A stretch of DNA of 23,150 nt, from positions 1 through 23,150 of the forward strand of contig JANBQS010000279.1 of NCBI GenBank assembly GCA_027577415.1, written 5' to 3'. Under the pieces are notes generated by a model. That model was not told where the DNA came from and did no database searches. It saw only the letters and a list, made by a program, of their open reading frames with translations. This DNA comes from Coemansia sp. RSA 922 (taxonomy: Eukaryota > Kickxellomycota > Kickxellomycetes > Kickxellales > Kickxellaceae). Numbering within the stretch: the first letter of the stretch is position 1; every line of letters starts with the position of its first letter. Below are positions 1 to 22,133 of this stretch, one piece after another. The position numbers and the translations under genes were made by a program.

Positions 1-341
1 GCTTTGCTTGGGCGAAACATTTGTCAAATCTAGTGCTTTCTTTTCCACTTTGCTTGCAAGCAGCTACAGCATAAAATGTATTCGTCATATACATGGAGTA
101 CTTTGTCTTGATTCACATTGGAACCAACTTTGAGTTGGCTTGATACGCAGTCCAGTTGGTTCACGTCTTGATCAGATCACTCAATCACAGTAGAGCCAAT
201 AGCACGCAGCCAGGCAACACCTAGCGCTTTGGACTGAAAGCGTCACTGGTCATTTCTCTACTCTTTTGTTTTAATCGTACATTCCAGCCAGCACTTTATA
301 TTCTTTACATCTACTAGCGCGTGGAAGCTTGCGTCACTGAA
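1..341 (+). promoter_or_regulatory. Upstream region and 5' leader of RET2
   Basis: No coding region is supported here. The stretch ends at the RET2 start codon and presumably holds its promoter and 5' leader; a TTTATATTC run near 296 is the only TATA-like sequence close to the gene. A 9-base perfect inverted repeat (GAACCAACT at 121-129, AGTTGGTTC at 154-162), with another AGTTGG at 133-138 between the arms, could fold or bind a dimeric protein; its role is unknown. Confidence 0.4.
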
Positions 342-2192
342 ATGGTAAGCAGCGCGATTGCTGTCATCTGGCTCATTCAGAGCCCGCCGAGTATGTGCGT
401 AATCACCGATAGTAGTTAACCTCAATTCACATCGAATTTTCCTGCCTGTCGGACGTGTAATTCTATAGGTTATCTTGGCATCGTCGATTTGTACAAAGAC
501 CGGAACTGGTACGTTACGTGATATTTAAAGTTAGGACTGGTGTGGCAATTGCTCAGACTCGCTCACTAACAATCTCTCCCCCTTTCTTCTTTACAAACAT
601 TAGCTTTGGTCTCTCGGCAATTTGTCGAGATGCCACGTACGCGCATTGAGGGGCTTTTGGCGTCGTTCCCAAAGCTAATGGTTCCTGGTCAGCAGCACAC
701 AACGATAGAGACCGAGACTATCCGCTATGTGTACCAGCCGATCGGCGAGGAAATGTACGCCGTGCTTATTACCAGTCGCCAGAACAATATTGTCCAGGAC
801 ATGGACACGCTCCACTTGATTGCGCGGGCGGTGGCCGACATTTGCGACGTCAACGACCAGCAGGGTGTCATTTTGCGCGGGTTCGATATCCTGACAGCGT
901 TTGAGGAGATTATATCACAGGGATCCAGGGACAAAATCGACCTCGCCAAGCTGCGCACAATCATGGAGATGGAGAGCCACGAGGAAAAGATACAAGATAT
1001 CATTGATCGCAACAAGGAGCGGGAGGCCAAGCAAGAGCTGAAGCGGAAAGCCAAAATGTTTGAGGAGCAGCGCCGGCTGGCTACAAAGCACGGGCTTGCT
1101 GAGCCAAGTTTGGGCGGTATTGGCTCTGAGTCTGGGGGATCAATTCTTGGTGGTGGACGCATGGGAGGTAGCTATGAGCCTCTACTATCTCGCGAACCAG
1201 AGACTATTCGCTCGTTTGCGTCGGCCTCTCCAGCAGCCTTGTCGTCGTCGTCATTTGCGTCTAATGCTCGCGGTATGAAGCTTGGACGCAAGCCAAAGGG
1301 TGCCGATGCCATGGGCGCCATGCGAAACGAAATTGACCTGTCACAGAATCTCGCCGAGCAGCTTAATATATCCGAGCCAGTACTTGGATATAGTTCTTCT
1401 CACTCCGTTGCTGCTGCTGCTCCGATTGCTGCCGCGGTTGCTATGCCGACAATGGCACTTGCGGACATGAAGGCCGTTCACGTACAGATCGAGGAGCACA
1501 TCACAGCTATAGTCAATCGCGACGGCGGTCTTGAGCAGATGGAAGTCAAGGGCGATTTGTCGCTTATTGTAACCGATGAGACATGCAGTGTCGTCCAAGT
1601 CGGAGTTGCCACCAACGACTCGCACAACGCCCAGATCAAGACGCATCCAAAGATTGACAAGAAAAAGTTCCTGAGCGACTCGCTCATTACTCTCAAGGAC
1701 GCGTCTGGATCATTCCCCCTGTCGCAGCCCATTGGTGTGCTCAAGTGGCGCATTGTCTCCTCCAACGAAGACGATATCCCGCTCACAATCAACTGCTGGC
1801 CGTCGCCCAATGGCAGCGGCTCTGTTGACGTGAATATTGAGTACGAGCTGAACGATACCAGACTTGAGCTTGACAATGTTGTTGTGTCTATTCCGATTCC
1901 GCATGGCGCTCAGCCCAGTGTCAGCGATGTCGACGGCGCTTATGATGTCAACCGCACTCGCGGCACTCTTGACTGGGAGATTCCGACCATCGACGCGAGC
2001 AACAAGAATGGCAGCCTTGACTTTAGCATTCCCGGAAATGATGCTGGTGCGTTCTTCCCTGTGGTTGTGTCGTTTGTATGCAAGAGGCCTTACTACGACA
2101 TTGCCGTAACTAGTGTCACTACCCCTGACGGCCAAGAAGTTGACTTTTCGCAGCTCGTGTCGCTGGTGCCCGACCAATACGCGGTTATTTAA
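342..2192 (+). CDS. RET2: Coatomer subunit delta (delta-COP)
   Basis: Subunit of the COPI coat (F-subcomplex), which drives retrograde Golgi-to-ER and intra-Golgi vesicle traffic in the cytosol and on Golgi membranes. The coding exons are 342-344, 469-508 and 604-2192, giving about 543 residues, close to yeast Ret2 and human ARCN1. The joined N-terminus reads MVILASSICTKTGTALVSRQ, which lines up without gaps with the family start MVLLAAAVCTKAGKAIVSRQ; this fixes both small exons. Residues 1-135 form the longin-like domain (FVEMPRTRIEGLLASFPKL, YVYQP). A charged helix follows (EREAKQELKRKAK), then a Ser/Gly/Ala-rich linker, and from about residue 300 the mu-homology domain (HPKIDKKKF, GVLKWRI, PLTINCWPS, VNIEYEL). 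Two introns interrupt the first 16 codons. The start codon stands alone in exon 1. Identity is certain; the start is strongly supported by homology. Confidence 0.97.
345..468 (+). other. RET2 intron 1, directly after the ATG
   Basis: Donor GTAAGC follows the start codon immediately and the acceptor is CTATAG. A GTTAAC near 415-420 can serve as branch site. Removing it puts the ATG in front of GTT ATC TTG GCA, the conserved delta-COP N-terminus. Confidence 0.9.
509..603 (+). other. RET2 intron 2
   Basis: Donor GTACGT, acceptor ATTAG, branch site CACTAAC at 564-570 followed by a pyrimidine-rich tract. It splits an Ala codon (G|CT) and joins the ICTKTGT segment to LVSRQFVEM. Confidence 0.92.
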
Positions 2193-2597
2193 GTCGTTGT
2201 CGTCCATTATCTTAGCTTTATTCTCCTGTAATGCTGGACTGTCAGTTTCAAGACATCCTCAGTAGTATCTGATATATTTAATAATGGCTTTTTTTGTCAT
2301 TATACGTATGTAAGATGTAACATTTTATTGACCGCCAATTGCTTTTAGGCTTGTCTAAATTGGCATTAGCTGATCAAGAACCCGAGACATGATGTTTAAA
2401 AGCACTGTCATTCCGCTTTGACAGGCCAAGTACAAAGGGCTTTTTTTAAAAAAAATATTAAGACGCTTTGTGTCCCAATGGAGGCAAGATAAAGCGGTCA
2501 AAGACCTGGATAGCATTAAGAGGCAAAGTTCTTGTTTTTTTAACCACTTTCTCGCTTTCCCTCTCACTTCACCCAATTATTATTTTCTTCATTCATC
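2193..2597. other. Intergenic: RET2 3' end and upstream region of the F-box-like gene
   Basis: AT-rich spacer with no supported gene. A T7A8 run at about 2443-2457 (TTTTTTTAAAAAAAATATT) is the likely core promoter or nucleosome-poor segment for the downstream gene. Pyrimidine-rich sequence (about 2527-2590) leads up to the ATG at 2598. No unambiguous AATAAA signal for RET2 was seen. Confidence 0.4.
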
Positions 2598-4301
2598 ATG
2601 CTACACTACTTAACTTCTCTTTTTCCATGCAAATTGCCGTTTGCCAATATTTCCAAACATGTATCTCCAGCGCAGACTACTCCATCTATTATCATACACC
2701 AAGTTAGACACTTTGTGGTAAGGGGACTAATGTCACCACATGATAAATCAGAAGACACGAAAGGAAAGATGGAAGAAATGTTGTATGTGTGCTCCTCTTG
2801 GCGACAAGCCTCTTTGGAATATATTTGGAGGGACCTTACCCTATGCGCCAACATTGAGGGGACCAAGATGCTTATCTCGGGTTCGCTATGGAAAAACCTG
2901 CTCTATCTTCCTCATGGTGTTGCAAACATGGTCAGGAAGGTTAAAATGTATGTACCCATGGATATCATTGTAAATGGGGTTGCCCACAAGCTTTTGTTCG
3001 AATTCATGGGGGATACAGAAGGATTTCCTTTGGTCAACAAGCTTACTATGGTGGTTGGCGACTGGACCATCACCTCGCCATGCTCAAAGGATGAGGCCAT
3101 TGGGAATGCTCTCAAGTTTGCTCAGCTGATTCAGTCAGTTACTCTAGGCACAGCAATGACGAATGTGATATTCACTGGCACTAATAGACTTGTAGGCAAG
3201 TTTGATGAAGAAATATTAGGGATGTTTATTAATTTACTATGTGGCAACATAAAAAGCCCGAGACTCGAACTGAGAGATCTGAAAATCAAGCATACATCAA
3301 CTGTTGAAAATACCCCTCAGCTTTCTTCACTAAGCGTGCGCTGCACAACAGCGTTTGATTTAAACACCGAGCTTGTTCACAAGTGTTCCCCGTCACTCCA
3401 GTTCTTGTATATTGGATTGTGTAATGCAAGAGCATTGCTGTACGATATACATGGGAATTCTATAGTCTATCCGAATATAAAACATCTGGTAATGTATTGT
3501 GCCGTCCATGATTACTCTGAAAAACGAGTTTTGGCCCCAGGCACGGTGCCATTTCCTTTATTGGCAAGCCTGAGAATAAACATGCCATATCCCTTTGCTG
3601 ATGATGTGGTTTTCCGAGGCAATAGTACCACCCTAAAACACCTGGACTTTAAAATTGACACGGATTCTGTGCACTCGCTACACGACAGTCGAGTGTTTAA
3701 AAACAAGCACGGAGTTTTGCATACAGTCAAACTTTGTGAGAACATCCGAGCTGGCGGTATCTCCCTCACCTTGGAAACTGTTTGGAACACATTTTTGAGG
3801 GATCTCATAGAACCTGCTTGTAAGTTGGTACTATCATACTCGGTTCAAGTGAAACCTATAATAGCAGCAGCGCCAGATGGTCATGGGTTCATGAATGTCC
3901 AAGTGTTGAATATGTCCTACAAACAACTCTATTTCTATGACATTTTGCGCCTATTAAAGGTATTTCCAGCCCTCGTGAAGCTTACATGTGGTGTTCTTAA
4001 TCTAGGTCCAGAGCTTGCACACGTTGATGCTGATGAATTGCCTGATTACATAGCTTCTACGTACAAAGAAACTGGAAAATGCCTTCAGGCCTGGTATATA
4101 TCAGGGTTTCACGGCAAGAGTGTCGTTACTACTGAATATGTTTTGCTACTTGCCCTTTGTTGTCCAAGGCTTCGCCGACTTGATGTGGGTTGTGAGGCAG
4201 CTTTTGAATTTAATGCCCTAGTGGTAGAAATGCTTGAGCGTAAACCATTTAGCAAGTATGCCTCGCAACTTAATCGACTTCTTCACTCTATGTATAATTG
4301 A
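2598..4301 (+). CDS. F-box-like protein with degenerate leucine-rich repeats
   Basis: Uninterrupted 567-codon frame. Residues about 29-80 resemble an F-box-like helix set: IIIHQVRHFVV, a charged linker, then MLYVCSSWRQASLEYIWRDL, whose 'VC..WR..aL..iW..l' is the usual end of an F-box. The rest is a run of irregular leucine-rich strands spaced 25-60 residues apart: FPLVNKLTMVV, PQLSSLSVRC, SLQFLYIGLC, PNIKHLVMYC, FPLLASLRINM, TLKHLDFKI, FPALVKLTCGV, CCPRLRRLDVGC. Such proteins are typically substrate receptors of SCF ubiquitin ligases. They form large, fast-evolving families in Kickxellomycotina as far as I recall. Base composition is more AT-rich than the flanking housekeeping genes. The N-terminal 28 residues are unlike the family, so the true start may be later or in an upstream exon. 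Substrate unknown. Confidence 0.55.
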   Translation: MLHYLTSLFPCKLPFANISKHVSPAQTTPSIIIHQVRHFVVRGLMSPHDKSEDTKGKMEEMLYVCSSWRQASLEYIWRDLTLCANIEGTKMLISGSLWKNLLYLPHGVANMVRKVKMYVPMDIIVNGVAHKLLFEFMGDTEGFPLVNKLTMVVGDWTITSPCSKDEAIGNALKFAQLIQSVTLGTAMTNVIFTGTNRLVGKFDEEILGMFINLLCGNIKSPRLELRDLKIKHTSTVENTPQLSSLSVRCTTAFDLNTELVHKCSPSLQFLYIGLCNARALLYDIHGNSIVYPNIKHLVMYCAVHDYSEKRVLAPGTVPFPLLASLRINMPYPFADDVVFRGNSTTLKHLDFKIDTDSVHSLHDSRVFKNKHGVLHTVKLCENIRAGGISLTLETVWNTFLRDLIEPACKLVLSYSVQVKPIIAAAPDGHGFMNVQVLNMSYKQLYFYDILRLLKVFPALVKLTCGVLNLGPELAHVDADELPDYIASTYKETGKCLQAWYISGFHGKSVVTTEYVLLLALCCPRLRRLDVGCEAAFEFNALVVEMLERKPFSKYASQLNRLLHSMYN

Positions 4302-4587
4302 AGCAACGTTCATTAATCTCCATCCTTGGATTGTGTGTATTCTTTTGATCTTTGTCTATTTTTTTTATCTCTTTATTTGTTCTAGTAAATTACTTTTGAT
4401 GTGAGAGCCTGGATATGGTATAAAGTAGATGCCTCTAGCTTAGAGTAAGCATGCCTACGAGAATAGGTGTATAGCTGGGGAGACACAATACAATAGCTTG
4501 TCTGCGGTGGTGGGGTCGTTGCTGAGAGCTGGTAGCGTAATATCTCTTGCATGTAGGAGCAGGCTTTAGCTAGTCGTGGGTAGCGGC
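4302..4587. other. Convergent intergenic spacer
   Basis: 3' ends of the F-box-like gene (+) and of the first small zinc-finger gene (-). A minus-strand AATAAA (plus TTTATT at 4372-4377) lies about 210 bases beyond the stop of the zinc-finger gene. No gene is supported inside. Confidence 0.35.
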
Positions 4588-4692
4588 TCATCCGATCCGC
4601 CACAGAGAGTGGATCCTTACAAAGTGATAATATCCGTCTATTTCTGATGCTAGAAACTGCCCACATATATGGCAATCGCGTGGATAATTCAT
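4588..4692 (-). CDS. Small single C2H2 zinc-finger protein, copy 1 (34 aa)
   Basis: Function unrecognised. The 34-residue frame starts MNYPRDCHICG, shared in part with copy 2 (MNYP..C..CG). C7 and C10 are followed by exactly 12 residues and then H23-x4-H28, the classical C2H2 zinc-finger spacing. The hydrophobic residue four after the second Cys (L14) is kept, as in the other copies. The frame ends SLWRIG. One finger can bind zinc but is normally weak at sequence-specific DNA binding, so a protein-binding or dimeric role is possible (inference). Upstream are a TATA box at 4824-4831 and ACAATT at 4909-4914. Too short for usual gene callers; reality rests on the conserved motif and promoter across six copies. 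Confidence 0.62.
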   Translation of the reverse strand: MNYPRDCHICGQFLASEIDGYYHFVRIHSLWRIG

Positions 4693-4914
4693 TATCAACA
4701 ATTTAATCCTTGGAACAATTTAATGTGTCTTGTAGTAGTTTTCTCTAGCGCCTGTTGAGATGGAAGTGATAATTTTAAAATATGCGATTTAGCTCCTTGT
4801 GTTATCCCCTGGCTGACTAGCCCTTTATATACGGCAAACAACACTTGGAAACCCCAAACCAAGCGGAATATGAATACAATGAGCAAAGGCGAAAACACTA
4901 ATAACCGTACAATT
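4693..4914 (-). promoter_or_regulatory. Promoter and leader of zinc-finger copy 1
   Basis: On the minus strand GTATATAAAGGG gives a TATA box at plus 4824-4831, about 132 bases before the ATG. ACAATT occurs at plus 4909-4914, 78 bases upstream of the TATA box. A diverged version of the distal repeat may lie at about 4984-5060 (GGAATCCCGC ... CATGTACAT). Confidence 0.6.
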
Positions 4915-5085
4915 AGCAGCATATTTAATTGACCAAATGAGGAATATTCAAAAGTATAATTAATATTTATTATTATATTACTGGATTGGAATCCCGCGTT
5001 ATACTTGTAGGTCTGCACATTTAAGAAAGCTAGCTTTTACAAATATCGTGTCATGTACATTACACAATTGACGTGCAGAGTAACT

Positions 5086-5214
5086 TTATTTGAAACCATT
5101 GGGACAAAAAAAGTATTGTGTCACGCGACAAGGTGGTCCTTTATAGTGGGTAAAATCCTGATCAGCCGATTCTAGATGCATTCCACACACCTTGCATTCA
5201 GTGGGGTAATTCAT
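5086..5214 (-). CDS. Small Cys-rich zinc-finger protein, copy 2 (42 aa, C2HC-like)
   Basis: Function unrecognised. The frame begins MNYPTECKVCG like copy 1. C7-x2-C10 and H23 keep the family spacing of 12. The second His is missing: a Pro stands where the x4 His falls, and C29 follows one residue later (H-x5-C), with another Cys at 37. Zinc binding by C7, C10, H23 and C29 or C37 is plausible. The 42-residue frame ends PNGFK. It has a strong TATATATAAAGG box at about 5349-5360 and ACAATTG at 5430-5436. No AATAAA was seen downstream. It may be a diverged active gene or one losing its finger; retention of five Cys/His residues favours the former. Confidence 0.55.
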   Translation of the reverse strand: MNYPTECKVCGMHLESADQDFTHYKGPPCRVTQYFFCPNGFK

Positions 5215-5436
5215 TACTGCCAAAGAAATATGATGCAAAATCCAAGCAGAGTTTATAGTTTGGAGTAAATGTCGCGGTGTTTGTCTGGAGAAAATTGGAT
5301 GAAGTAAAGTATAGCGAGCTCTCCAAACAAAAGGACCTACAACAGTGCCTTTATATATAAAAGGCCATTTTCGAGCAGACCAAGCCAAGCAACTTGTGAA
5401 TATCGGGGAAAGTATCTGATGGTCATTACACAATTG
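5215..5436 (-). promoter_or_regulatory. Promoter and leader of zinc-finger copy 2
   Basis: Minus-strand TATATATAAAGG (plus 5349-5360) lies about 137 bases before the ATG. ACAATTG (5430-5436) lies about 70 bases further upstream. The leader contains GCTATACTTTACTTCATCC (plus about 5297-5315), nearly the same as GCTATACTTTGCTTTATTC in copy 5. Confidence 0.65.
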
Positions 5437-5506
5437 CGTTTACCAATATCCGGCTATTTATGTAATTGCCAATTATGAACATTCGCTTCTTAGCATAAAA
5501 TTTTAT

Positions 5507-5575
5507 TTTTGGAATGCCGCCCATGTGTATGCTTAGAACATGCACAACAGCTCACATATATCCTATAGGAAACTC
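5507..5575 (-). repeat. Distal upstream repeat of copy 2
   Basis: Plus-strand core GGAATGCCGCCCATGTGTAT, then a GAACATGCACA and CTCACATAT segment. It matches the distal elements of copies 3, 4 and 5 in the order GGAATgCC - CaCGT-like - tTgGAAca - cACaagAG - CgTACAT. Confidence 0.5.
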
Positions 5576-5961
5576 AGGCAATTATATTACTATTGCATTT
5601 TGCATTCTTTTAAATTTCACTACAAGTATTTACAAAAAAAAATCCATATTTCTTTAAATTTTATTTGCTAATTAATACAGCCACAAATTTATAATCTTGA
5701 AATAAAACGGTAACACAATGTCCAGAGTAAGGTAATTATAGATAAATAGGTTAATTTTGTCAGGCCATTCAGCGATAGTGAGTTGTACAGTGAGAGTCGG
5801 TTGTCAAGCCAGTTATTTGTTCTTGTGGCTTTCAAGTACTGTATTATCATTAGACGATAACGAAATATCATACAATAAGGAGGTATATTCATTGGATTGC
5901 ATTCTTTTATACTGCCTACTATTTGGTATAATAATAAAGACTATGATGGTTTAAAGGCGTG
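5576..5961. other. AT-rich spacer, no gene seen
   Basis: The longest gap in the array. It includes the 3' flank of copy 3. A minus-strand TATAAAAG followed by GCAATCC (plus 5898-5911) resembles the array TATA boxes, but no ACAATT lies 70-78 bases upstream and no C-x2-C frame lies 135 bases downstream. At most it is a decayed unit. Confidence 0.3.
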
Positions 5962-6051
5962 TCATGCAATGTGGTAGAACTTGGCTTTCACCGATTTTAG
6001 CAGCCTCTTGCATATTTTGCAGTAGCTGGGATATAACTTGGTTGCTGACAT
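5962..6051 (-). pseudogene. Small zinc-finger protein, copy 3, ended by UGA inside the finger (29 aa)
   Basis: The frame reads to C11-K-I-C14 and, after 12 residues, H27, then I, A and a UGA stop at 5962-5964. The next codon is CAC (His), so without the stop the spacing would be H-x3-H, also a legal C2H2 form; the frame would then close at TAG (5941-5943) after six codons. The product therefore lacks the fourth ligand unless the UGA is read through. Promoter parts are intact: TATA at 6138-6145, AATTGT at 6214-6219, and GGAGGAATTC in the leader. A recently broken copy is the simplest reading; a functional truncated peptide or stop readthrough cannot be excluded. Confidence 0.5.
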
Positions 6052-6221
6052 GATATCTAGCATGTATCAGGCATATTTTAGAATGAAACAAGATACAAGA
6101 GAATTCCTCCGAGTGAGTGAATGTCAAACCGTTGCCTTGTTTATAACAATTTTAGCTTAGATATAATCATATTGAGCAGTACACGAACATTCCTCATTCA
6201 AGGACATTCGCGTAATTGTAC
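6052..6221 (-). promoter_or_regulatory. Promoter and leader of zinc-finger copy 3
   Basis: Minus-strand TATAAACAAGGCAAC (TATA at plus 6138-6145) is about 87-94 bases before the ATG, the shortest leader of the six. ACAATT (plus AATTGT 6214-6219) is about 69 bases upstream of the TATA box. GGAGGAATTC (plus 6101-6110) lies about 28 bases downstream of the TATA box, where transcription should start. Confidence 0.62.
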
Positions 6222-6290
6222 AACATGTGCATTGGAGGTCGGCTCTGAATGAAGTTGACACATGCCAAAATAAGTTTTATGTACAATTGC

Positions 6291-6346
6291 TGTAGGAATG
6301 CCAGCCACGTACAAGTTTGGAACACACACAAGAGTTCGCGTACATA
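6291..6346 (-). repeat. Distal upstream repeat of copy 3
   Basis: Plus-strand core TAGGAATGCCAGCCACGTAC, then GTTTGGAACACACACAAGAG and GCGTACAT. It is the best-preserved version. A second TACAATTG lies just before it (6282-6289). Confidence 0.55.
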
Positions 6347-6521
6347 AGTTATCTAATGGAATAGTGAGGTCCCACTCACCTATTCGCTGTAAACAACTTA
6401 TACCCTTTTAATAACAATCAATAGGTATGAAAAGAGATGACGTTTCTCGTTTAGTAATTTTAATAATGTAATTATTTATTAAACTTAATGGAGGAGGCTA
6501 TACCAACTAGGGAGTGCATCT

Positions 6522-6632
6522 TTAGCCAGACAACACAATACCGTGATAAATTAGCAAATGTCCCTTCCCTTCTTCTACTGATGCTACCACCGCCCCACAA
6601 ATTTTACATGTTCCGCCATTCGTCGCCGCCAT
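6522..6632 (-). CDS. Small single C2H2 zinc-finger protein, copy 4 (36 aa)
   Basis: Function unrecognised. The frame has 36 residues. C9-K-I-C12, twelve residues, then H25-x4-H30 form a canonical C2H2 spacing. The stretch between is rich in small and acidic residues (SVEEGK), followed by HLLIYH. It has exactly the same length as copy 5 and about 16 of 36 identical residues, with no indel, including all four ligands, CG, SVEE, K23, HLLI and I32. TATA is at 6767-6774, ACAATT at 6849-6854, and a minus-strand AATAAA (plus 6475-6480) lies 42 bases after the stop, so the unit looks like a complete short gene. There is no signal peptide and no room for another domain. Confidence 0.7.
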   Translation of the reverse strand: MAATNGGTCKICGAVVASVEEGKGHLLIYHGIVLSG

Positions 6633-6854
6633 TACGTTAAAGCAGAAAAAAATACAGATTGGTTTTAAACTACAGCGTGGTAACTGCAGTGCTTGTCAAG
6701 AGAGGATTTGTAATATTGACGAGATATTATGAAATCCCTCAGAGTGGGTGGGTGTCCTAGGATTGCCTTTTATAGCAGCGCTGACTTTAAGTGGTTCAAT
6801 CCAGGCATTACGTGAATGCTCAGCATTAAAACATAGTTTATTAATTATACAATT
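6633..6854 (-). promoter_or_regulatory. Promoter and leader of zinc-finger copy 4
   Basis: Minus-strand GCTATAAAAGGCAATCC (TATA at plus 6767-6774) lies about 135-142 bases before the ATG; ACAATT (6849-6854) lies 75 bases upstream of the TATA box. A CTGAGGGATTTC variant of the start-site motif lies about 27 bases below the TATA box. Confidence 0.68.
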
Positions 6855-6910
6855 AAGTGCGACAATGGTTGGCTTGTTAAGCACTGACGTGCGTATATTC
6901 TTATTCCCAA

Positions 6911-6968
6911 ATCTTTGTGAATACCACTCACGTGCATGTTTGGAAAATACACGAGAGCTTACGTACAT
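6911..6968 (-). repeat. Distal upstream repeat of copy 4
   Basis: Plus-strand GTGAATACCACTCACGTGCA, then GTTTGGAAAATACACGAGAG and ACGTACAT. It carries a palindromic CACGTG (E-box/bHLH-type core) at the point where copies 3 and 5 have CACGTA. Confidence 0.52.
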
Positions 6969-7138
6969 CAGTTTCTATTTGAGTAGCAAGTTTCTGCCCA
7001 CCTTCTCGCTGTAAATGGTCAGTGACTTTTCAGTGGTATATATGAGGAATGAGGAGAGAATGCCTTGATTTTTTCAAATAGTATAAATGCTTTTTTATTA
7101 TGCAATTGAAAGGGCTACACCCATTAGGGAGAGCAGAT

Positions 7139-7249
7139 TCAGTCGACTACGTTAATATTGTGAAAAATTAGCAAATGTAGTTTCGCTTCTTCTACCGATA
7201 CTACCATCATCCCACAAAGATAACAAATTCGGGTATCCATTACCACCAT
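7139..7249 (-). CDS. Small single C2H2 zinc-finger protein, copy 5 (36 aa)
   Basis: Function unrecognised. The frame has 36 residues with C9-Y-L-C12, twelve residues, H25-x4-H30, and HLLIFH at the end of the finger. It is collinear with copy 4 without a gap although more than half the residues differ, which argues for selection on the finger. A second in-frame ATG at codon 4 could also serve as start. TATA is at 7383-7390, ACAATT at 7465-7470, and a minus-strand AATAAA (plus 7094-7099) lies 40 bases after the stop, matching the 42 in copy 4. Confidence 0.7.
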   Translation of the reverse strand: MVVMDTRICYLCGMMVVSVEEAKLHLLIFHNINVVD

Positions 7250-7470
7250 TATGCAAATGTAGAAAATAGTACAGGTTGGTGATAAAGTAAGACGTAGTTA
7301 ATGTGGCACTTTTCAAGAAAGAGTTAGAATAAAGCAAAGTATAGCAGTATTCCTGCGAGCGAATGGGTGTTTTGCCCTTGTCTTTTTATAGCATATTAAG
7401 CTCAAAATAGATTAAAAATAATAATATGCAAATGACCAACAATGAAGTATATTTCTGTGATTGTACAATT
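7250..7470 (-). promoter_or_regulatory. Promoter and leader of zinc-finger copy 5
   Basis: Minus-strand GCTATAAAAAGAC (TATA at plus 7383-7390) lies about 134-141 bases before the ATG; TACAATTG (ACAATT at 7465-7470) lies 75 bases upstream. CGCAGGAATACTGCTATAC starts about 28 bases below the TATA box and matches the start-site motif of copies 3 and 6. Confidence 0.68.
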
Positions 7471-7540
7471 GAGTGAGAAGATGGTCAGCTCTATATGCGA
7501 ATGCCAAATACGGAAGTACGTCTATTGTTAGAAAAGTTGC

Positions 7541-7605
7541 TTTAGGAATGCTGTTCACGTATGCAATTTTCCACCTGTATGTAAGCCTGGAGCATACATG
7601 TACAA
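7541..7605 (-). repeat. Distal upstream repeat of copy 5
   Basis: Plus-strand TTTAGGAATGCTGTTCACGT, then a diverged ATGCAATTTTCCACC and GAGCATACATGTAC. It shares the GGAATGC and CACGTA parts with copy 3. Confidence 0.5.
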
Positions 7606-7722
7606 TTATAGCTATCATGTCAACGTCACGCATAAGGGCTCTCATATATATTCCAAGGTGCCCAATCGCGTGGTTAGCTGTCCAAACAACGCGATCTGCT
7701 TTCGACTCAAAACTCGCCGGGC

Positions 7723-7887
7723 TCAGGGCAGCCAATAGGGTTTCTTTGGAGGGCAGCCTTTGCCAACCAATGTAACATTGTGTTTATCTCGAAAATGTTT
7801 TACCGCGTCTTCAACAGTCAGAATATATGCCCAACAGTAGCAGCAATTTCCAGGATATGGATCGGGTTTTGAGTAAATACGATGCAT
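7723..7887 (-). CDS. Small single C2H2 zinc-finger protein, copy 6 (54 aa)
   Basis: Function unrecognised, and the longest copy. The N-terminus is MHRIYSKPDPYPGN. The finger is C15-C-Y-C18, twelve residues (including TVEDAVK), H31-x4-H36. A basic, Pro-rich tail follows (GKGCPPKKPYWLP). The ATG is the first after an in-frame TAG five codons upstream, so the start is well defined. TATA is at 8007-8014 and two ACAATT elements at 8077-8082 and 8085-8090. It is the most diverged from copies 4 and 5 and the first unit after FIBP; the KKP tail could add nucleic-acid contact (inference). Confidence 0.65.
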   Translation of the reverse strand: MHRIYSKPDPYPGNCCYCWAYILTVEDAVKHFRDKHNVTLVGKGCPPKKPYWLP

Positions 7888-8096
7888 GGCTCGAGCAGAC
7901 TATACGATCTAACGTGTTATTAGTCGTGACACTTGTCAGAAAACAATTATAATATAAGCAAGGTGTAATGAAGTTCCTCCAAGGATGTAGATGCCATATC
8001 ATTGCCATTTTATAGCAAAGCAGGTTTGAAGTGAATCATGTCGAGCAAAGAGTACTCAACATTAAAGTATATTGGAACAATTGCACAATTGTGCAA
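7888..8096 (-). promoter_or_regulatory. Promoter and leader of zinc-finger copy 6
   Basis: Minus-strand GCTATAAAATGGCAATG (TATA at plus 8007-8014) lies about 120-127 bases before the ATG. GGAGGAACTTC (plus 7970-7980) begins 27 bases below it. TTGCACAATTGTGCAA at 8081-8096 is a perfect 16-base palindrome centred on the ACAATT element, about 71 bases upstream of the TATA box. Confidence 0.65.
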
Positions 8097-8330
8097 TAAA
8101 AATTTTTTCAAAAAAAGAAATATGCTGAAAGGGATGATGTCAAATGACCCGTATCTATTGCTCAAATAGATTTTATTAATGAGAAATCATGCATTCATTG
8201 GTTGAAAGGTTTTTTTAGTCAAATAAACATCTTATTCAAGCAATTGTACGAGCTGTCTCCACAAAGCTCCAACCTCCGCAACAGCACATCCTCAAGTCAT
8301 CTCGTCATTTTAATATCTTCACAGATTTTG
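8097..8330. other. Intergenic: 3' flank of FIBP
   Basis: AT-rich sequence beyond the FIBP stop on the minus strand, containing A- and T-runs (for example 8100-8120 and 8210-8216). No distal repeat like that of copies 2-5 was seen for copy 6 and no gene is supported. Confidence 0.35.
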
Positions 8331-9723
8331 CTATTGTGCGGGTCTGATTTTGTTTAGCGGGCCGAAAATGCTAGATTTCTGTCTAAACAGTCTGCGCCCA
8401 ATAAGCTTGGTTCCTGTCAGCGTACGACTGAGGGCCTCAATGGCAGGCGCCGAGTCGGGAATCTGCTCAGTGACAATGCCAATGGAGTGGATAATGACAG
8501 AGTCGTAAAACAGCTCCATGTCCTCGGATCGTAGACCCATGCTGGCAAACGAATCGACAATCTTCTCCACTATAATTCCTAATACGCTGCGCAACGTTGA
8601 CGAAGCGCCAATATCGGCAACTATACTAAACGAAACCCGCAAGACTGCTCGAATTTGTGTACTTCCACGTACGATGCGATTCTCCAGTAGCGCCAGCAAA
8701 GCTGATGAGGGAACTGTAGAGGTAGAGGCCGAAGATCCGCTGGGCGTTTTGGGTATAAGCGAACTGATGTGAACGCGCACTGCTGTACACAAACAGTCAA
8801 AATTGGCCTTGTTTTCAATTAGAAGACTCTTCAACTGCTGAGCGTGCTGGGTAAGCGGTTGGTCAATATCGTCTAGCGTCATCGTGCTAGTCGGAGTAGT
8901 CCAGTACTGTATGAGTATCGAAGCACAAAAGTCAAAGTCGGCAAACTTGAAGTGTGCCAGACAACGCTTTGTCGTGTCAACTCTGTTAATGTTCAAAAAC
9001 AGGATATGCGCGTAGTGTGTCGCTAGTGGCTCGGACAATGCAAACCTTTCCATAATCTCATTGACTAGCGGCACGCCTTCCTCGTCTTCTGACTGCTTGG
9101 CAATGCGTTTGATATTCTCAAACTGGCGCTTGCAGCTGGCTACAGGGATGCCTGTCTTTGTTGCCACTTCGGGCAGATATGTACGAGTACGGGAGTTGAG
9201 CTTGCGGCTGAGGAATTCAAGCATCACTGGCTCGTCAAACGCATAGTACTGCTCGACCAGACCCATGCGTGCCTTATCGCCTAGCGGCAAGAGATGGCGT
9301 TGCTCGAGAAAGTACCGCGGACGGCACATGTAGTACTCTAGGTACTGCATCAGGTGTAGCTGTCCTCTGACATACTCGGTCACTGCTGACTCTTGTGCGC
9401 CTACCATGTCCGGCTCGCTGCGCATCCGGGTTACCATTTCGTGAACTATAGAGCAAGAACATTTGTAGATACGCTTAGTATTGGTCCAAGTGACGACAAC
9501 CAACCTTAGAGGTGCCAGTATCAGTGATTCTCCTCGTACCTGGTCGACCTAATATGTACTCGTTAAATATCATGTTGTCTACCACGACTGGCGTCGACAC
9601 TATCGCTGTAAAGTTTGCATCATCTGCTTGCTCCTCGTGCCGGTTGAAGCGCAAAAAGTCTAGGTTCGGGTGAGGCAAGCGCAAATTTGAGAGCTGGAAG
9701 CTAGCCGAGGCAAAGTCGCGCAT
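8331..9723 (-). CDS. FIBP: FIBP-family protein (acidic FGF intracellular-binding protein homologue)
   Basis: The coding exons are 9723-9540 and 9445-8331, about 432 residues (human FIBP is about 364). The splice joins NEYILGRP to VHEMVTRMRS, which is collinear with human WLDGYSVTDAVALRVRS. Other family landmarks are VEQYYAFDEPVMLEFLSRKL (human IERYYAFDEAFVREVLGKKL), ATKTGIPVASCKRQFENIKR, FADFDFCASILIQYWT and a helical C-terminus. The first 45 residues are an extension not found in the human protein. FIBP is an intracellular helical protein that in animals binds FGF1; its ancestral role in fungi, which lack FGF, is unknown. The start was placed at the only ATG in exon 1; the frame is open further upstream to a TTG. 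Divergent from ZNHIT3 with a 223-base shared promoter. Confidence 0.9.
9446..9539 (-). other. FIBP intron
   Basis: Minus-strand donor GTACGA, acceptor CTATAG, branch-like ATACTAAG about 30 bases before the acceptor. It splits a Val codon (G|TT) and restores the FIBP alignment without a gap. Confidence 0.88.
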
Positions 9724-9946
9724 ATGGTAGTTTTCAAAATAAAAGAGAGGCTGGAATTGAGACAAATGAGTACAAATTAAGAAAATGTTGAATAATCGAA
9801 TAAGAAAGGAGAAACGAGAGCTTGGTGTCTAGACCTCCCCCCATAAAGCCCTGCTGGTGACAATCGTCGAGCCTTGACGGCTGGATACTTTGGCGTATAA
9901 ACCTGCACAGGAGAACGTGTGTAGCTTTATCTTTTTTTCAACTACC
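9724..9946. promoter_or_regulatory. Bidirectional promoter between FIBP and ZNHIT3
   Basis: Short divergent spacer. It contains a CCTCCCCCC run near 9833 and pyrimidine-rich sequence before the ZNHIT3 ATG (CTTTATCTTTTTTTCAACTACC). No clear TATA box for either gene. Confidence 0.4.
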
Positions 9947-10369
9947 ATGGGCGAAGAAACATGCACTGTTTGTAGCGAGGCAGTCTCCAAATACAAGTGC
10001 CCCACATGTCGGGCGGGCTACTGCTCGGTTAAATGCTTCAAGCTGCACAAACTCGAGCCATGCGCTCCACCAGACCACAGCACGCCGGCAGCAGCACCAA
10101 GCAAGGGCCGAGTCTTAAAACAAAGCGAGCGAGATCGTATTGGTGACGATGATGAGGAAGAAAAGTACAGACTGACACCCGGCGACTTGCAAAAACTGGA
10201 CGAGTCGACAAAGGTCAAGCAATTATTGATGAACCCAAATACGCGAGCGCTGCTAGAGGCCGTGCGCAAAGATCCCAATCCAGTCGAGGCCATTCGCGCT
10301 TTGCGACAGCGTCCGGATTTTGAGGAACTGGCTCAGGCACTTATTGGCGCTACCGCAATGACGTCCTAA
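9947..10369 (+). CDS. HIT1: HIT zinc-finger protein, ZNHIT3/Hit1 type
   Basis: A 140-residue protein. An HIT zinc finger fills residues 6-39: C6-x2-C9, C18-x2-C21, C26-x3-C30, H34-x4-C39, with KYKCPTCRAGYCSVKCFKLH typical of the family. The C-terminal half has the ZNHIT3 helix pair: LTPGDLQKLDESTKVKQLL, MNPNTRALLEAV and FEELAQALIG, like human LLLNPHLRQLM...FVEFADCCL. ZNHIT3/Hit1 binds NUFIP1/Rsa1 and helps assemble box C/D snoRNPs in the nucleus. The ATG at 9947 (CTACCATGG context) was chosen because the 19 upstream in-frame codons are unlike the family and lie in a pyrimidine-rich leader. An acidic DDDEEEK stretch lies in the linker. Confidence 0.9.
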   Translation: MGEETCTVCSEAVSKYKCPTCRAGYCSVKCFKLHKLEPCAPPDHSTPAAAPSKGRVLKQSERDRIGDDDEEEKYRLTPGDLQKLDESTKVKQLLMNPNTRALLEAVRKDPNPVEAIRALRQRPDFEELAQALIGATAMTS

Positions 10370-10610
10370 TGCTAAATATAGCGCAGGGCCATTTTGGGGT
10401 CGAAGTCGTTTTCCGCGTATCAAAGCGCATGTGGCCCGCGCTTTCCTTCTCGCTCTTGGAGCTGATTTCGTACTTTGGCAATACTCTGCATTTCTATTTA
10501 ATTTATTCCTGGCTTTTTTTTTTTTTTTTTTTTTGACAAAGCACGCACTCGCGCGACGATTGGAATTCCACACGTCTTATAATAGGCTTGCAATTGTCCA
10601 AAAGAGAAGA
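10370..10610. other. Intergenic with long poly-T tract
   Basis: ZNHIT3 3' end and UNC13-like promoter. A run of 21 T at 10514-10534 is a typical poly(dA:dT) promoter element of fungi. A frame open through it (FLAFFFFFFL) is regarded as non-coding leader. Confidence 0.45.
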
Positions 10611-13600
10611 ATGCCACCGCGTCCACTACCCACGCGCCCAGTTCCTGAGGGGAGGAACTCGCCGTTCACCACGCCCATGGACCCACAGAGTAGCTCGCGG
10701 GTGATGAGCTATGACCAGCAACTATACTCTGACTATGCACCTACTAGATTAAGCGCTACAGAACAGCAACTATCGTCTCTAAGCCTACAGAACGATTTTG
10801 TCGATGGCGGTGCGATGCATTGGCCCTTTGACACAGCCACTGGTAGCGTAAGTGCTGTTTCGAGTACACAGGCCATTACGCAGCAGAGTGCTACTCCGCT
10901 TGCCGCATCGTCGGTTAATATTCACGACAGAGCTAGTAGTCCTGACCGCCATCCCGCCGACAGCGAACAAATCACTTACCAGTACGCGTTAAGGTATGCA
11001 ATGCTGCTAGACGCGGATAGCGCGCTGCTAGCGGCCCGCACACGCAGTTTGGGTGGATTCGATGCCTTATTGGACTCAGCCGAAGGACGATCAGGGTCTC
11101 CGGGTCCAAACGGGTTTGCTGTAAAGACCGTGGGCCGAGCCAGCGGCGCACCCAATCTCAACAACCGCACACCAACTCTAATTGTCTCAAACAGGACGAG
11201 AGCAGTATCCAGTGCGAGTCCAACGGAGCTCAGTTCTATCTCTGGAAAATCTAGAGGATGGAAAACAAGCTTGCTTGAGTTTAGCGACAGCGCCGCACGT
11301 CGGTTAAAGGCCGAAATTGGCAGCGCGGGAAAGCTCAAGCAACTTGCCAAGGGCAAATCGAGTAGTGGGTTCGCGCCTAAATCGCCTACCAAGAACGGCG
11401 GCATGACGTCCAACATTATCAAGGCCCTACAGCAGCAGCTCAAAACGTCTGCTGGCTCGTCCTCGGTGCATCCAATCACCAAGGATTGCTACTTGGAGAT
11501 GTATGGCTATTTGCGAGTCAAGGAACATAGCGAGACGCTGGCCGAGCACGGTACCATTGGCGATATAATGGAGTTGTTTACCGATACAGCACGCACTGTC
11601 TGTCATCGCCACGGAATTACGACCAACGAGGCTATCATACGCACTGTCGATAGCCAGGTGGACGGGTTTGTAAAGCTTTTCCGGTCGACTTTGCAAACAA
11701 GGGCTCAGGCTTCGCGCGAGGCGGGACTGGCGCTGCTGAAGCTTGACGATTATCAGACCGCACCGTTTGCTGGTGGTGGTCGTATGCGCTCCAATTCGGA
11801 GCTGTCGTCAGCTAGGAATGGTGCGCAGCGTCAGTCTTTGATTGTCGATAACACGGCGGTAGAGAGCAAGCTAATTAGCAATTGGCTCAAAGACGCATTC
11901 AATGTCCCGGATAGCGAGCACCGACAGTTAGTTGCCGAGCTCAAGAACGAAGTGAATCAAGAGGTAAGCGCTATTAGTGAAATGTCGTTGTCAACCAACT
12001 GCTTGCCTACACATGACCCTTGGAGTGTTGCTAATGTTGCTCTGTATTACTTGTGTTTTTTTTATTATTATGTAGACGGCGACGTACGACTTGCGTATGT
12101 GTTTGTTGGTGCTGAAGAAGGACCAGAGCTTTGCTGGCAAGCCTGAGAACTTTCGAACGCCACACGCTTACAGTATTTGGAAGGAGCGCGAGATCACATC
12201 GCTGGAGCAGCTTATACACACGTACGCCATGAGGCAGAGTTACATGTCGGGAGAGCAAATCGGCGCTGGGCGACTGAAATTGGAGGCCAGCGCGATAGAG
12301 TCCATGGGCGATGAGGAGATCGCTGCTGCTTTCGAGTATATTCCAGCCAAGGCCGCGCAGCACTATCGAATGCTTGTTTACAAGGCTATCACGCACGATA
12401 TCGTCGACCGAATAGATACAGCCAATCCTGCTACGCCGCTCCAGCTGTCTAATCGTGCCAAAGACTTGCTCAAACAGCTCTCTATCGCCTGGCGTATAAG
12501 CGCGTCGTATCGCGAAACGTGCTATTTGGACATTATCAACGACTACTACGAGCAGGACGTCTTGCCCTATTCATACTTGCTGGATGCGTTTGGCAAGATT
12601 GAGAGAATCATTCATCTCATGAACCCGATGGAGTGGCTGATCCCCCAGTATCAGTACTTGGTCGATGTCGAGGGGCGGATCGAATATCGCGCACTGGGAT
12701 GCACCCAAGATGTCATCGAGGAGCTCGACCAGCAGCGGCCCGAAAAAGTCGACCACTTGAAGCGCATATTAAGGGCGCTGGTTATAAACGATGCTGCCTG
12801 TCCCGTCGCGATTAACAAACCTATGCCCAGTATCCAGAGCAGACGCGAAGAGGTAGTCGCTGTTCTTGAGTCGTCAATCGTTTACCGCTGCGATTGCTTG
12901 CTCAGACAGTGCTTTGGCGACGACTCATCAGTAGCGCCCAGCGTCGATGGGCATGCGCAGTTGGCCGGGTTGGTTTTGCGCGACTACGAGCGGTGCCTAC
13001 TGATGTTCTCTATGCCACTGCTTGAAGACGGAGACCGCCGCTTTGACATTGCTGGGATTGTCGCGGAGATTGAGACGGAGTACTTTTACACCAACTTGAA
13101 GCGCCATATCGACCAATTCGGGTACACTGTCGAGAATGCTGATATCGAGACTACTCTGGAGCTATGCAAACTGGTTTCAAAGATCGAGAGGCTCCACGCT
13201 CGATATAGCGCCCGACCGCTTTCAGGTGTTGACAACCGGCGACTGTTCAAGGAGACCGTGGCGATTTGGCTCAAGGGCATTGATCGCGAAAAGTCAAAGT
13301 GGGCTGAGAACGCTCTCAAGCAAGACAGCTCGCCTCGGGAGCTGGATATCGGCAAGCACTCTACGTCGGTCATCGACTTGGTCAGTTGCTTTTCGCAGCA
13401 GGCGGCGACAGTGCAGCGGCTCGAGTGGCCTGACATGGAAACCAAGGCGTGGTTCCTAGCCGAGTTTATGAAGTACGTCGACATTAGCTTCAAGGTGTAT
13501 GCCACGGTGATGCTAAAGCAGTTTATGGCTTGTCTGAGTCTACCGGCGGAGGACGAGGACGCCAAGAGTCCAGGCTGGAACAGCATGTGGAACCGCCGAA

Positions 13601-15534
13601 AGTACAAGGAACAGTCGCTCAACTTGAACTCGTCGACACAAGCCGCGATATCCAAGCTGGACCAGTCGCAAGCCGTCGAGATACACGCCGAGGCGTGTAT
13701 AAAGCTCAACAACCTGGCGATCGCCTTGGAGAAGCTGCACGAGTTGCAAGACGACTTGGGCGTGCGCGAGACAGTGGAGGCCTTGGGCGGAGATAATCGG
13801 CCGTCAATCAAGGGTCCGCGACCCGAGACGTTTCTTTTGTCGTTCAAGGTTATCCGTGCCGAAAGCTTGGAAATCTACAAGGAGCAGTATGGCGCGGCTG
13901 TCGACGCGGGAGCTCGACCCTATGTCAAACTGGCGGTTACGCGGCAAGTAGATAGCGAGGTGACCAAGCGCTCGACGTTTGGAAAGACCAGGCCAGCACC
14001 CATTGGATCGGCCAACCCACGGTGGAACGAGTCATTCGACTTGCAGGTTGACTCGCGAGAAGAGTTTTTGGCGCCGCTTGAGGCTCGCATCTGCACTCGC
14101 GATGGGCCAAAACGGCTGGGGTACCGCGAAAAGACGCGAGCGCGGGCGTTCTTCGCACCTCCTTCGGAGCTTGCATTTGGAATTGACGGCTCTGTCGATG
14201 TCGTGCTGGATCTTGAGCCCTCGGGATACCTTTTGCTACAGGTCACAATGGACGGCGAGCGTGACGATGTGGAGTTTTACAGTGGGCGCATGTTCCGCTT
14301 CTTGGAGCGGGCAATGTCTGATATGCAGCATCGCATTGTGGAGCAGGTGTCTTGTGGCATACGAGAGTACTTGCGGCAGATTCTAGTGGCCCAGCCTGCG
14401 CGCTACCGTGCCTCGCGCACCCTGGGAGGCGGTAGTAGCAGCTATGTGAACATGGATCGTAGTATCGAGCGCAGCATCCAGTTCCTCAAGCGCGGCGGAC
14501 ATCAGGCGCCTGCTACCATTCGAGTGACCCAAGAAAGCTGCTGTGAAGCGCTTATCCCGCTGGTCGACTATCTCGAAGACAGCCTACATACCCTGTTTGT
14601 GCACCTGTACGAGGACACGGCTAATGGCGTTATCTGCAAGGTGTGGCATGAGGTGCTGCTGTCGCTGGAGGACATATTGCTGCCGCCACTGCTTGGCGCG
14701 TCAAAGGGCAGTGCCAAGGCGTTGACTGAGACCGATATGCAAAACATATTCGATTGCTTGGATTTCCTAAAGTGGTACTTTGAGGGCGGCACGGACAAGG
14801 ACGGCATTCCAGAGGAAGCTCTAGTCACTCGCAAGTATCAAGAGCTGTTGATGGTCCGCGAGATGTACTTTATGCTGTCCAAGGAGCTGATCGACGCGTA
14901 CTTGCACGAACTGCGCCGATCGGCGATCGAGCTGAACGAGGTGCCGACTTTGACGACGGCTGACTCGCCCTCCAGTGTCAACACTTCGCCTGGACATCGG
15001 CGGCCTCTACCATCCACTCCGCAAGAAAAGGGCGATATGGCGTTCCCGCCAACACGACTCTCTCCGACGCTGACTCCGGCTCCGCCAAAATATAGCGAGA
15101 CTGCAGCTGGGGCCTTTGGTCTGCCTCCTGGTCGGCGTCCAATTCCTCCGCCGCCACCGCCCATTCGAACGAGAGTCGATAGCATGGACAGGCTAAGTGC
15201 CCATCGGTTCGGCGAACATGAAGACGGTGGGCACAACTCGTCTACGGACACACTGCCCATGCCTGCTATGGACATACGCACGGCTATTGTGCCAATGCCT
15301 GCTAAGCAATCTGGCGTGAATCGCAGTCGCTCGGTGTGGGCTCACAAGAACGCCGAAACGCTGAGTCGATTCAAGCGCAAACACCGCATGGTTACGGACA
15401 GAGGCGACCTCATCCTGCGCATCCTTCGCTTGCGCTTTGACAAGGAGGCCAGCAAGTTTGTGCAAACTCAACTCGATGTTCGAAACCAACAAATGCACTT
15501 TGAAATGCGCCGTGCCGCTAAACGGCCCTCTTAG
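10611..15534 (+). CDS. ync13: UNC13/Munc13-like protein with MHD1, C2 and MHD2 domains
   Basis: Exons 10611-11963 and 12076-15534 give about 1603 residues. The N-terminal ~300 residues are low-complexity Ser/Pro-rich. A helical UNC13 (DUF810-type) region follows. MHD1 lies at about 815-937 (ERLHARYSARPL ... VDISFKVYATVMLKQF). A C2 domain lies at about 1035-1180 (LLSFKVIRAESLEIY, RPYVKLAV, NPRWNESFDL). MHD2 lies at about 1270-1400 (LVDYLEDSLHTLFVHLYED, VWHEVLLSLEDILLPPLL). A Pro-rich disordered segment (PIPPPPPPIRTR) precedes a basic helical C-terminus. Munc13 proteins prime vesicle fusion through SNAREs at the plasma membrane; fission yeast Ync13 couples exocytosis and endocytosis at the division site. 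The C2 loop lacks an obvious full set of Asp Ca2+ ligands. The start at 10611 (MPPRPLPTRP) avoids the poly-T leader. Confidence 0.92.
11964..12075 (+). other. UNC13-like gene intron
   Basis: Donor GTAAGC, acceptor TGTAG, branch-like GCTAAT at 12030-12035, T-rich 3' part. It joins ELKNEVNQE to TATYDLRMCLLVL in phase 0; without splicing the first frame runs to a stop at 12146. Confidence 0.92.
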
Positions 15535-15634
15535 TTGTTATAGCTTTTGTATGAAATGTATGTAGTTCAGAGTTGTTATTTTTTTGTTTAAAGTTTGAAT
15601 ATAAAAGAATATGTTCCATGTCGATGAACTAGGG

Positions 15635-16888: not shown

Positions 16889-17216
16889 GTTTTATGTTCT
16901 TCGTGCGAGTTTGAAATAGATGCAATATGTTGTTCTTGTGCTAATATATGGAGGTGAAAAAAAAAAAAAAATTACAAAGGCAAGAAGTGAGTACGCGTAA
17001 AACTTGCCCAGCCTGTCGCTTCCGGATATCGTGCCTCAGATGTTGCCCACGCATGACAAGCACGAATGGGTAGACGTGCAAAGCTCGCGCTTTCTTTGAG
17101 TGTCTTTGCTCAAGGGTGCGAAAACACAACCTTTTTGTAAGGCGCCTTCTTTGACTGTCTTCTGAGCAATGGCCGCAAAGAACTCACGCGCACTGCTAGC
17201 AAGAAAGCGACTATTC
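16889..17216. other. Spacer between the two IPK1 genes
   Basis: Promoter of copy A and 3' flank of copy B (both minus). It holds a run of A (16958-16971), which is T on the transcribed sense, close to the copy A start. An imperfect direct repeat lies at 17091-17112 and 17146-17168 (TTTCTTTGAGTGTCTTTGCT-like). No gene is supported. Confidence 0.4.
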
Positions 17217-18464: not shown

Positions 18465-18776
18465 TAGTTGAGGAAAATGTAAGTGAACAGAAGAGCCAGT
18501 TGACTTTTTTTATTTGGAAGGATATAAATGAAAAATGATATGCAAGCGAGATGCAAGATGTTTGTGATCGGTGTGTAACTGTGAGAGAGAAAAAAAACCC
18601 ACCAGATATTTGCTAGGATTGGGGGGGGGGAAGAAGTGTGTGCAAATTCAGAAGCTCGTGCTGTGCTTTTTCTCATTGCCAAAACAGGATGCTTATGTAC
18701 CTTTTTTCATATTTCATATATCGTGAAGGAATTCAGTAATTCGCACTCTTGCTAGAATTCAGCTGCATTTGAAGTC
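18465..18776. promoter_or_regulatory. Bidirectional promoter between IPK1-B and SEC8
   Basis: No gene seen. It contains a G10 run at 18621-18630, a GAGAGAGAAAAAAAA run near 18584, and two GAATTCAG copies near 18729 and 18756. Any of these may be promoter elements, but none is recognised. Confidence 0.4.
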
Positions 18777-22065: not shown

Positions 22066-22133
22066 CTGCCAACAACTTTTTTTACTCTGTACCACAGCAT
22101 TCTAATATTACACTTTTTTTGCGCTATATGACA

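Follow-up and report, generated by a model that had tools for sequence, protein, structure and literature searches.

What are six short reading frames that follow one another on one strand of a fungal contig and each encode a single zinc finger? The window analyzed here, i.e., the whole stretch of 23,150 nucleotides (nt) at positions 1 to 23,150 of contig JANBQS010000279.1 (C279 below) of Coemansia sp. RSA 922, carries on its minus strand, at 4588-7887, six uninterrupted open reading frames (ORFs) of 29-54 codons, each with the motif C-x2-C-x12-H. Computation establishes these ORFs, arrays of the same kind on other contigs, a common promoter grammar, coding constraint in the pooled set, and turnover between haplotypes. 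The units are almost certainly a real coding family, and the peptides are very probably zinc-binding C2H2 fingers. We see about an even chance that the whole is an unrecognized, Coemansia-lineage family of protein-binding single-finger microproteins, each transcribed alone from a shared promoter type. All genome results come from one assembly (20.4 Mb, 960 contigs).

The array and its relatives

The six window copies are as follows.

4588-4692, minus strand: copy 1 ORF, 34 amino acids (aa), finger complete
5086-5214, minus strand: copy 2 ORF, frameshift inside the finger, past the first His; allele on contig C69 complete
5962-6063, minus strand: copy 3 ORF, stops past the first His on both haplotypes
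6522-6632, minus strand: copy 4 ORF, 36 aa, finger complete in the window; first His gone in the C69 allele
7139-7249, minus strand: copy 5 ORF, 36 aa, finger complete
7723-7887, minus strand: copy 6 ORF, 54 aa, complete C-x2-C-x12-H-x4-H; allele at C69:35107-35271

Chance was assessed with 3,000 dinucleotide-preserving shuffles of 4320-8340, scored on both strands with an ATG required ahead of the motif. Frames with C-x2-C-x12-H averaged 0.040 per shuffle (maximum 2) against the six observed, and frames with the complete C-x2-C-x12-H-x4-H averaged 0.0033 (maximum 1) against the four observed (copies 1, 4, 5, and 6). Both counts given by the sequence-only reading of this locus hold. In a repeat search of the window, parts of the unit came up as diverged copies at a spacing of about 620 bases; identity between copies 4 and 5 is 71% across 168 nt, and an AATAAA lies 41 nt past the stop of the former and 39 nt past that of the latter. 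A transposon remnant was considered and dropped, on the basis of the repeat search only.

Relatives were sought in the same assembly by single-sequence searches with individual members, which returned matches on C538/C248, C61/C72, C3, C150/C42, C636, and C660 and further ones on C92, C492, C175, C495, C299, and C196. Because E-values between paralogues were often modest in such searches (about 1e-5 to 0.1), membership was judged on motif, promoter, and position together. Matches lay only in frames of up to 117 aa, with no larger "parent" protein among them. Among frames of at most 130 aa, 37 ORFs with C-x2-C-x12-H were collected from the stretches read on 11 contigs, with both haplotypes counted and with eight frames judged to be chance and two lacking a nearby ATG left out; all 37 have a single finger or a broken one, which follows in part from the size limit. 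These results support the proposal made for the window, that of single-finger microprotein genes standing alone in a tandem array, and show that such arrays recur outside it.

When gathered by C-x2-C-x12-H alone, 21 of 25 one-haplotype members have the second His at the same spacing, and the hydrophobic residue four positions past the second Cys, first remarked on in the window copies, is kept in all 25 (as F, L, V, I, Y, or M). A core set of 14 members taken as intact alleles (copy 3 excluded, copy 2 taken from C69) has C-x2-C-x12-H-x4-H throughout, as it was chosen to, with lengths of 31-54 residues. A protein tree gave little resolution: 3 of 22 inner branches were starred, and the core set does not form one clade.

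The generic C2H2 model PF13894, which also picks up large C2H2 proteins in this genome, gave 129 matches in the assembly at E up to 10, one of them above the curated cut-off; across 14 control genomes it matched in two, never above the cut-off. Of the 129, 62 fell within frames no longer than 130 aa, spread over 47 contigs. Eight of these 62 were read (two on C660 and one each on C636, C42, C150, C3, C538, and C926), and each proved to be a short ORF that has an ATG and a single finger or finger-like motif; two of them, on C636 and C3, do not show the standard second His. On these eight frames, the matches hint that the set may be much larger; we give no family size, since the remaining frames may include exons of larger genes, chance matches, and both alleles of one locus.

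Clusters of short frames with weak C2H2 matches, spaced about 400-1000 bases apart, were also noticed on C926, C441, C847, and others of the 47 contigs, and the frame read on C926 is a 51-codon ORF with its finger at the end. A second class of single-finger ORFs, many of which start MP(S/T), occurs on C636, C660, C92, and C492 and in further stretches (L066-L069), mostly with a TATA box about 78-116 nt ahead of the ATG.

A shared promoter

Upstream of member ORFs on C279, C538, C72, and C3 the order is palindrome AATTGTACAATT, 64-72 nt (mostly 64 or 68), TATA box, 126-145 nt, and ATG, with 203-224 nt from palindrome to ATG. Copy 3 departs from this, with 162 nt from palindrome to ATG and 82 nt from TATA box to the start used. 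The elements in the window are listed below.

4826-4831, minus strand: copy 1 TATA box, 139 nt ahead of ATG
4903-4914, minus strand: copy 1 palindrome, 2 mismatches
5354-5359, minus strand: copy 2 TATA box, 145 nt ahead of ATG
5424-5435, minus strand: copy 2 palindrome-like site, 3 mismatches
6140-6145, minus strand: copy 3 TATA box
6214-6225, minus strand: copy 3 palindrome, 2 mismatches
6769-6774, minus strand: copy 4 TATA box, 142 nt ahead of ATG
6843-6854, minus strand: copy 4 palindrome, 1 mismatch
7385-7390, minus strand: copy 5 TATA box, 141 nt ahead of ATG
7459-7470, minus strand: copy 5 palindrome, 1 mismatch
8009-8014, minus strand: copy 6 TATA box, 127 nt ahead of ATG
8079-8090, minus strand: copy 6 palindrome, 1 mismatch to AATTGTACAATT; a second match (at most 2 mismatches) begins at 8087

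Promoter statistics were computed for 19 members on C279, C538, C72, and C3. The palindrome, at no more than 2 mismatches, is present in 13 of them compared with 9.8% of positions drawn at random from those regions, and a TATA box stands in the expected stretch in 13 compared with 48 of the 665 ATGs of these regions (members included). Elsewhere in the window (1-4319 and 8341-23150) no palindrome site reaches this threshold. Two core members have the palindrome at 3 mismatches, and the core member C72_13257 has the palindrome and no TATA match.

A scan blind to protein, using palindrome and TATA box only, covered 154,370 bases that had been fetched because members lie there. It returned 23 distinct palindrome-TATA places, with alleles counted separately, and every one lies inside an array; the first ATG opens a C-x2-C-x12-H ORF after 16 of them and such an ORF that has lost its first His after two, and at the other five the finger is preceded by a short ORF of 5 to 16 codons. 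Since these stretches were chosen for holding members, the whole genome is the fairer test. There the exact pattern TTGTACAA-N64-76-TATAAA has 16 matches, 9 of them at known members (alleles counted apart), and the other 7 compare with 9 for a reversed-pattern control; the promoter in its exact form thus seems nearly private to the microprotein family.

At 2 mismatches the palindrome is missing from ten outer members (three on C636, two on C660, one on C150, three on C538, and one on C3). A TATA box precedes the ATG by 78-116 nt in seven of the ten, and none was seen in the examined stretch for the three on C538. The second-class ORFs on C636 and C660 likewise show no palindrome at 2 mismatches. 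At C538:13539 and C248:5956 a palindrome-TATA pair is followed by a 9-codon ORF and lies upstream of an outer-type finger gene, perhaps as the remains of a lost unit.

Each unit would read as a separate gene, presumably transcribed and translated from one uninterrupted short frame. The palindrome AATTGTACAATT may bind one dimeric regulator, in which case the microproteins would be switched together. The fuller version of this idea, a large co-regulated repertoire in which one such regulator turns on many diverged single-finger peptides at once, strikes us as a long shot; if true, the repertoire would vary in number and state between haplotypes and amount to a polymorphic set of binding peptides facing changing partners, of the fungus itself or of other organisms.

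Alleles, turnover, and selection

Contig C69 represents the same region as the window, to which it gives a single match of 95.2% identity across 19.35 kb. Its copy 2 is complete, which makes the window copy a frameshifted allele; the C2HC-like form once ascribed to copy 2 was therefore dropped. Copy 3 had correctly been called broken, and recoding of its stop codon was dropped as well because the truncation is common to both haplotypes and nothing supports recoding. With the states on C69 and in the window combined, a complete finger exists on one haplotype or both for five of the six loci.

Turnover extends to the other arrays. C538 and C248 are alleles that match in two blocks, at 94.6% and 89.6% identity; a 478-base stretch of C538 holding one member is missing from C248, two copies near the C538 end stand where C248 has one, and C538_12153 is present on one haplotype and was not found on the other. 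For C72_12411 and C72_13257 no counterpart was found in the C61 stretch read. Two alleles, that of copy 4 on C69 and that of C538_12738 on C248, have each lost a ligand His. The contig pairs C279/C69, C538/C248, C61/C72, and C150/C42 diverge by about 5-14% in their main matching blocks, and they could be two haplotypes or, alternatively, two strains assembled apart.

Selection was estimated from alleles. The contigs with an allele partner held 19 rows, of which 5 were unusable (frameshift, absent, or gapped) and 1 duplicated a pair, leaving 13 distinct countable pairs from several arrays. Pooled, these gave 30.5 synonymous differences over 317.7 sites and 44.5 nonsynonymous differences over 1266.3 sites, for a ratio of nonsynonymous to synonymous divergence (dN/dS) of 0.35 (bootstrap over genes, 0.23-0.61; Fisher p = 3.6e-5). 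The value is also 0.35 without copy 3, and 0.44 (0.26-0.79; p = 0.003) when a possibly paralogous pair is removed too. Non-coding divergence in the array, 0.054 per site, falls between dN (0.036) and dS (0.103). The purifying selection suggested from the spacing of the ligands is in this way supported for the pooled set, and a dN/dS near 1, which would have told against it, was not what the alleles gave.

The genes around the array look like ordinary genes. On the lower-coordinate side are a protein with an Adap_comp_sub match, probably coatomer delta, and a frame of 585 codons; on the higher-coordinate side are FIBP, a HIT-finger protein, a MUN/C2 protein, two inositol-pentakisphosphate 2-kinases, and Sec8. 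The kinase genes are in tandem on the minus strand at 15635-18509 (PF06090, E = 3.2e-69 and 1.9e-88), and the one at 17217-18509 has 92% identity to a kinase of Coemansia sp. S146. The 585-codon frame (2544-4301, plus strand) has no Pfam match at E up to 0.001 and is nearly as divergent between haplotypes as the microproteins are, with a ratio of nonsynonymous to synonymous proportions of differences (pN/pS) of 0.32; our impression, and only that, is of an orphan F-box or leucine-rich-repeat type protein.

Fold, function, and known systems

Profiles built from the family resemble classical C2H2 fingers. Against the PDB, the 25-member profile matched ZNF568 (E = 3.6e-16) and Zif268 (about 1e-7), values that are flattered because multi-finger chains sum several matches. 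The 14-member core profile matched Gfi-1 (1.8e-7), HIC2 (1.4e-6), EEA1 (9.5e-4), a Zif268-GCN4 chimera (0.0012), Zif268 variants (from 0.0021), and PRMT3 (0.0022), with the EEA1 and PRMT3 matches spanning the length of the finger. The six window peptides by themselves gave weak matches (best E = 0.031). An AlphaFold2 model of copy 5 has one helix at residues 19-30, with a mean predicted local distance difference test score of 83.6. No Pfam family reached the gathering score for the members for which cut-offs were given (10, and 1 in another scan), and no UBZ family was among the best 25 of 49 Pfam families found for 25 members at E up to 1. Three NCBIfam families each matched 1 of the 14 core members, the best a desulfoferrodoxin domain at E = 9.3e-4; these were taken as chance C-x2-C matches and rejected.

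With helix positions assigned by standard C2H2 numbering, position +3 is acidic in 11 of 14 core members and basic in none, position +2 is acidic in 7 and basic in 1, and at position +6 five members are acidic and two basic; position -1 is Ser in 12, a polar residue of a kind that DNA-binding C2H2 fingers may also have at their contacts. The charge of the core fingers averages -1.6, whereas two of the three fingers of Zif268 carry +3 and +4. Acidic or Ser contact positions and negative charge argue against ordinary one-finger DNA binding and are the main reason that we prefer protein binding, although whether the fingers bind mainly proteins rather than DNA is to us close to an even call. On this preferred reading each intact peptide would fold around one zinc ion as one classical C2H2 finger with little else, and would serve as a protein-binding module in the manner of the single fingers of EEA1 and PRMT3, either as an adaptor for partner proteins or in competition for them; where helix surfaces differ between paralogues, their partners may differ too. 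That the peptides are specifically competitive inhibitors of larger proteins we consider doubtful.

Several results weigh against this reading. Of the 19 members surveyed, six have no palindrome at 2 mismatches, and six have no TATA box in its expected stretch. With the core profile, the multi-finger proteins Gfi-1 and HIC2 outscore EEA1, and Zif268 forms score about the same as EEA1 and PRMT3; Foldseek matches are weak throughout, the best (E = 0.28) being to a double C2H2 protein and none reaching E of 0.001 or below. The window array alone (5 pairs) has a dN/dS of 0.37 with p = 0.021, in line with the purifying selection claimed for it, but its bootstrap range of 0.19-1.15 reaches beyond 1. 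Five neighbor frames have ratios of 0.11-0.32 (uncorrected), below the pooled microprotein value. Within the finger, copies 4 and 5 differ at pN = 0.21 and pS = 0.14, on few sites, and dN exceeds dS in one other of the seven paralogue pairs compared; synonymous sites are often near saturation between paralogues. Together with the lost His ligands, the excess of pN in copies 4 and 5 means that single copies may be dispensable. The allele and paralogue comparisons thus indicate a constraint that is real for the set, but moderate and accompanied by turnover.

Other functions were considered. The peptides could be small DNA binders, perhaps as dimers or with short tails, that regulate genes and possibly their own promoter; the best profile scores do go to DNA-binding multi-finger proteins, and a palindromic promoter suits a dimeric binder. 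The contact residues and the mostly negative or neutral net charge oppose this, and a lone finger with almost no flanking sequence usually does not suffice to bind DNA specifically, which leaves it unlikely in our estimate. An association with RNA or the ribosome, as for an archaeal ribosome C2H2 protein or human ZNF706, would fit the equal size class and the matches of the 25-member profile to the archaeal ribosome micro-proteins 6skg_Bo (E = 3.5e-4) and 9sra_Bk (E = 7.8e-5), as well as a weak match of the window peptides to the double-stranded RNA-binding ZFa (E = 0.031); with the core profile these matches are weak (E = 0.1-0.25), the surface is acidic, and divergence and copy loss seem unlike a ribosome component, so this too appears rather improbable. 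Less probable still is a family that turns over fast in recognition or conflict (self/non-self, element control, or a selfish role), whose paralogues would diversify while the promoter and zinc frame are kept. The members found on one haplotype only (C538_12153, C72_12411, and C72_13257), the ligand-loss and frameshift alleles, and the excess of pN in copies 4 and 5 favor it, against an overall allele dN/dS below 1 and the absence of matches to toxin, immunity, or mobile-element families in all eight neighbor frames scanned.

Readings that deny the units a coding function fare worst. That the units are functionless, as a dead repeat or as exons decaying from a larger multi-finger gene, might be suspected from the two copies broken in the window (2 and 3) and the lack of homologues in the protein collection. 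Such remnants are hard to reconcile with units that have their own TATA box, a first ATG that opens the finger at 16 of 23 promoter places, a second His at its spacing in 21 of 25 members, a dN/dS of 0.35, and the same promoter grammar on several contigs, and we hold them to be very improbable. Short units behind a fixed upstream element might also be non-coding RNAs with incidental ORFs. Rfam gave no match to 4320-8340 at E up to 1, the constraint falls on codons, and the palindrome-TATA distance of 64-72 nt is unlike a small nuclear RNA promoter; we give this last alternative almost no credence.

A gene family with a shared promoter seems to have been overlooked; fungal annotation usually omits genes of such small size. 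Searches with 25- and 7-member alignments gave no relative at E up to 10 in a collection of 5.8 billion proteins, Coemansia proteins included, a negative of little reach because no more than 2 and 5 candidates had words in common with the queries. Open-licence literature on Coemansia or Kickxellomycotina zinc fingers and on fungal microproteins describes no such family in the titles and abstract starts of the matches listed. The arrays offer a natural series of minimal C2H2 peptides, with ligands kept and surfaces varied, that is useful for asking what a lone finger can bind, and the palindrome-TATA signature offers a promoter-based way to look for such genes.

The nearest known kind are the one-domain zinc-finger micro-proteins of Haloferax volcanii, described as being below 70 aa and many per genome, with 12 of 16 deletion mutants showing a phenotype under at least one condition (PMC6562870) and 43 of 282 micro-proteins carrying two C(P)XCG motifs (PMC10716476). 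Like the Coemansia family they have one zinc finger per small protein; unlike it they are archaeal and use a four-Cys pattern instead of C2H2, and tandem arrays with one promoter go unmentioned in the abstract text covered for both papers. Core fingers of Coemansia have one C-x2-C and one H-x4-H pair and do not show the two haloarchaeal motifs. Plant MINI ZINC FINGER microProteins, for which a model of interference by pairing with a larger relative is described (PMC6003976, PMC13087070), are also small and single-domain, but they are of the zinc-finger-homeodomain type and have a known larger parent family, and none was found for the Coemansia family. Human ZNF706, reported to act on G-quadruplex RNA (PMC13082076), is likewise a eukaryotic microprotein and by name a zinc-finger protein; it is a single protein, and its abstract mentions no array family.

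Fingers of the Zif268 type share the Cys/His spacing class, the hydrophobic core position, and the predicted helix, and differ in having several fingers instead of one, whereas the Coemansia family has H-x4-H (all 14 core members) and mostly acidic or Ser contacts. Comparable in proposed function are the C2H2 finger of EEA1, which binds Rab5 (PMC7036122), and the finger of PRMT3, which is needed for uS5 (PMC10216425), with no direct finger-uS5 contact in the model discussed there. Both (3mjh and 1wir) are single C2H2 fingers that match the core profile and bind proteins or assist in binding them, but each is one domain within a large protein, whereas in the Coemansia arrays the finger is nearly the entire peptide.

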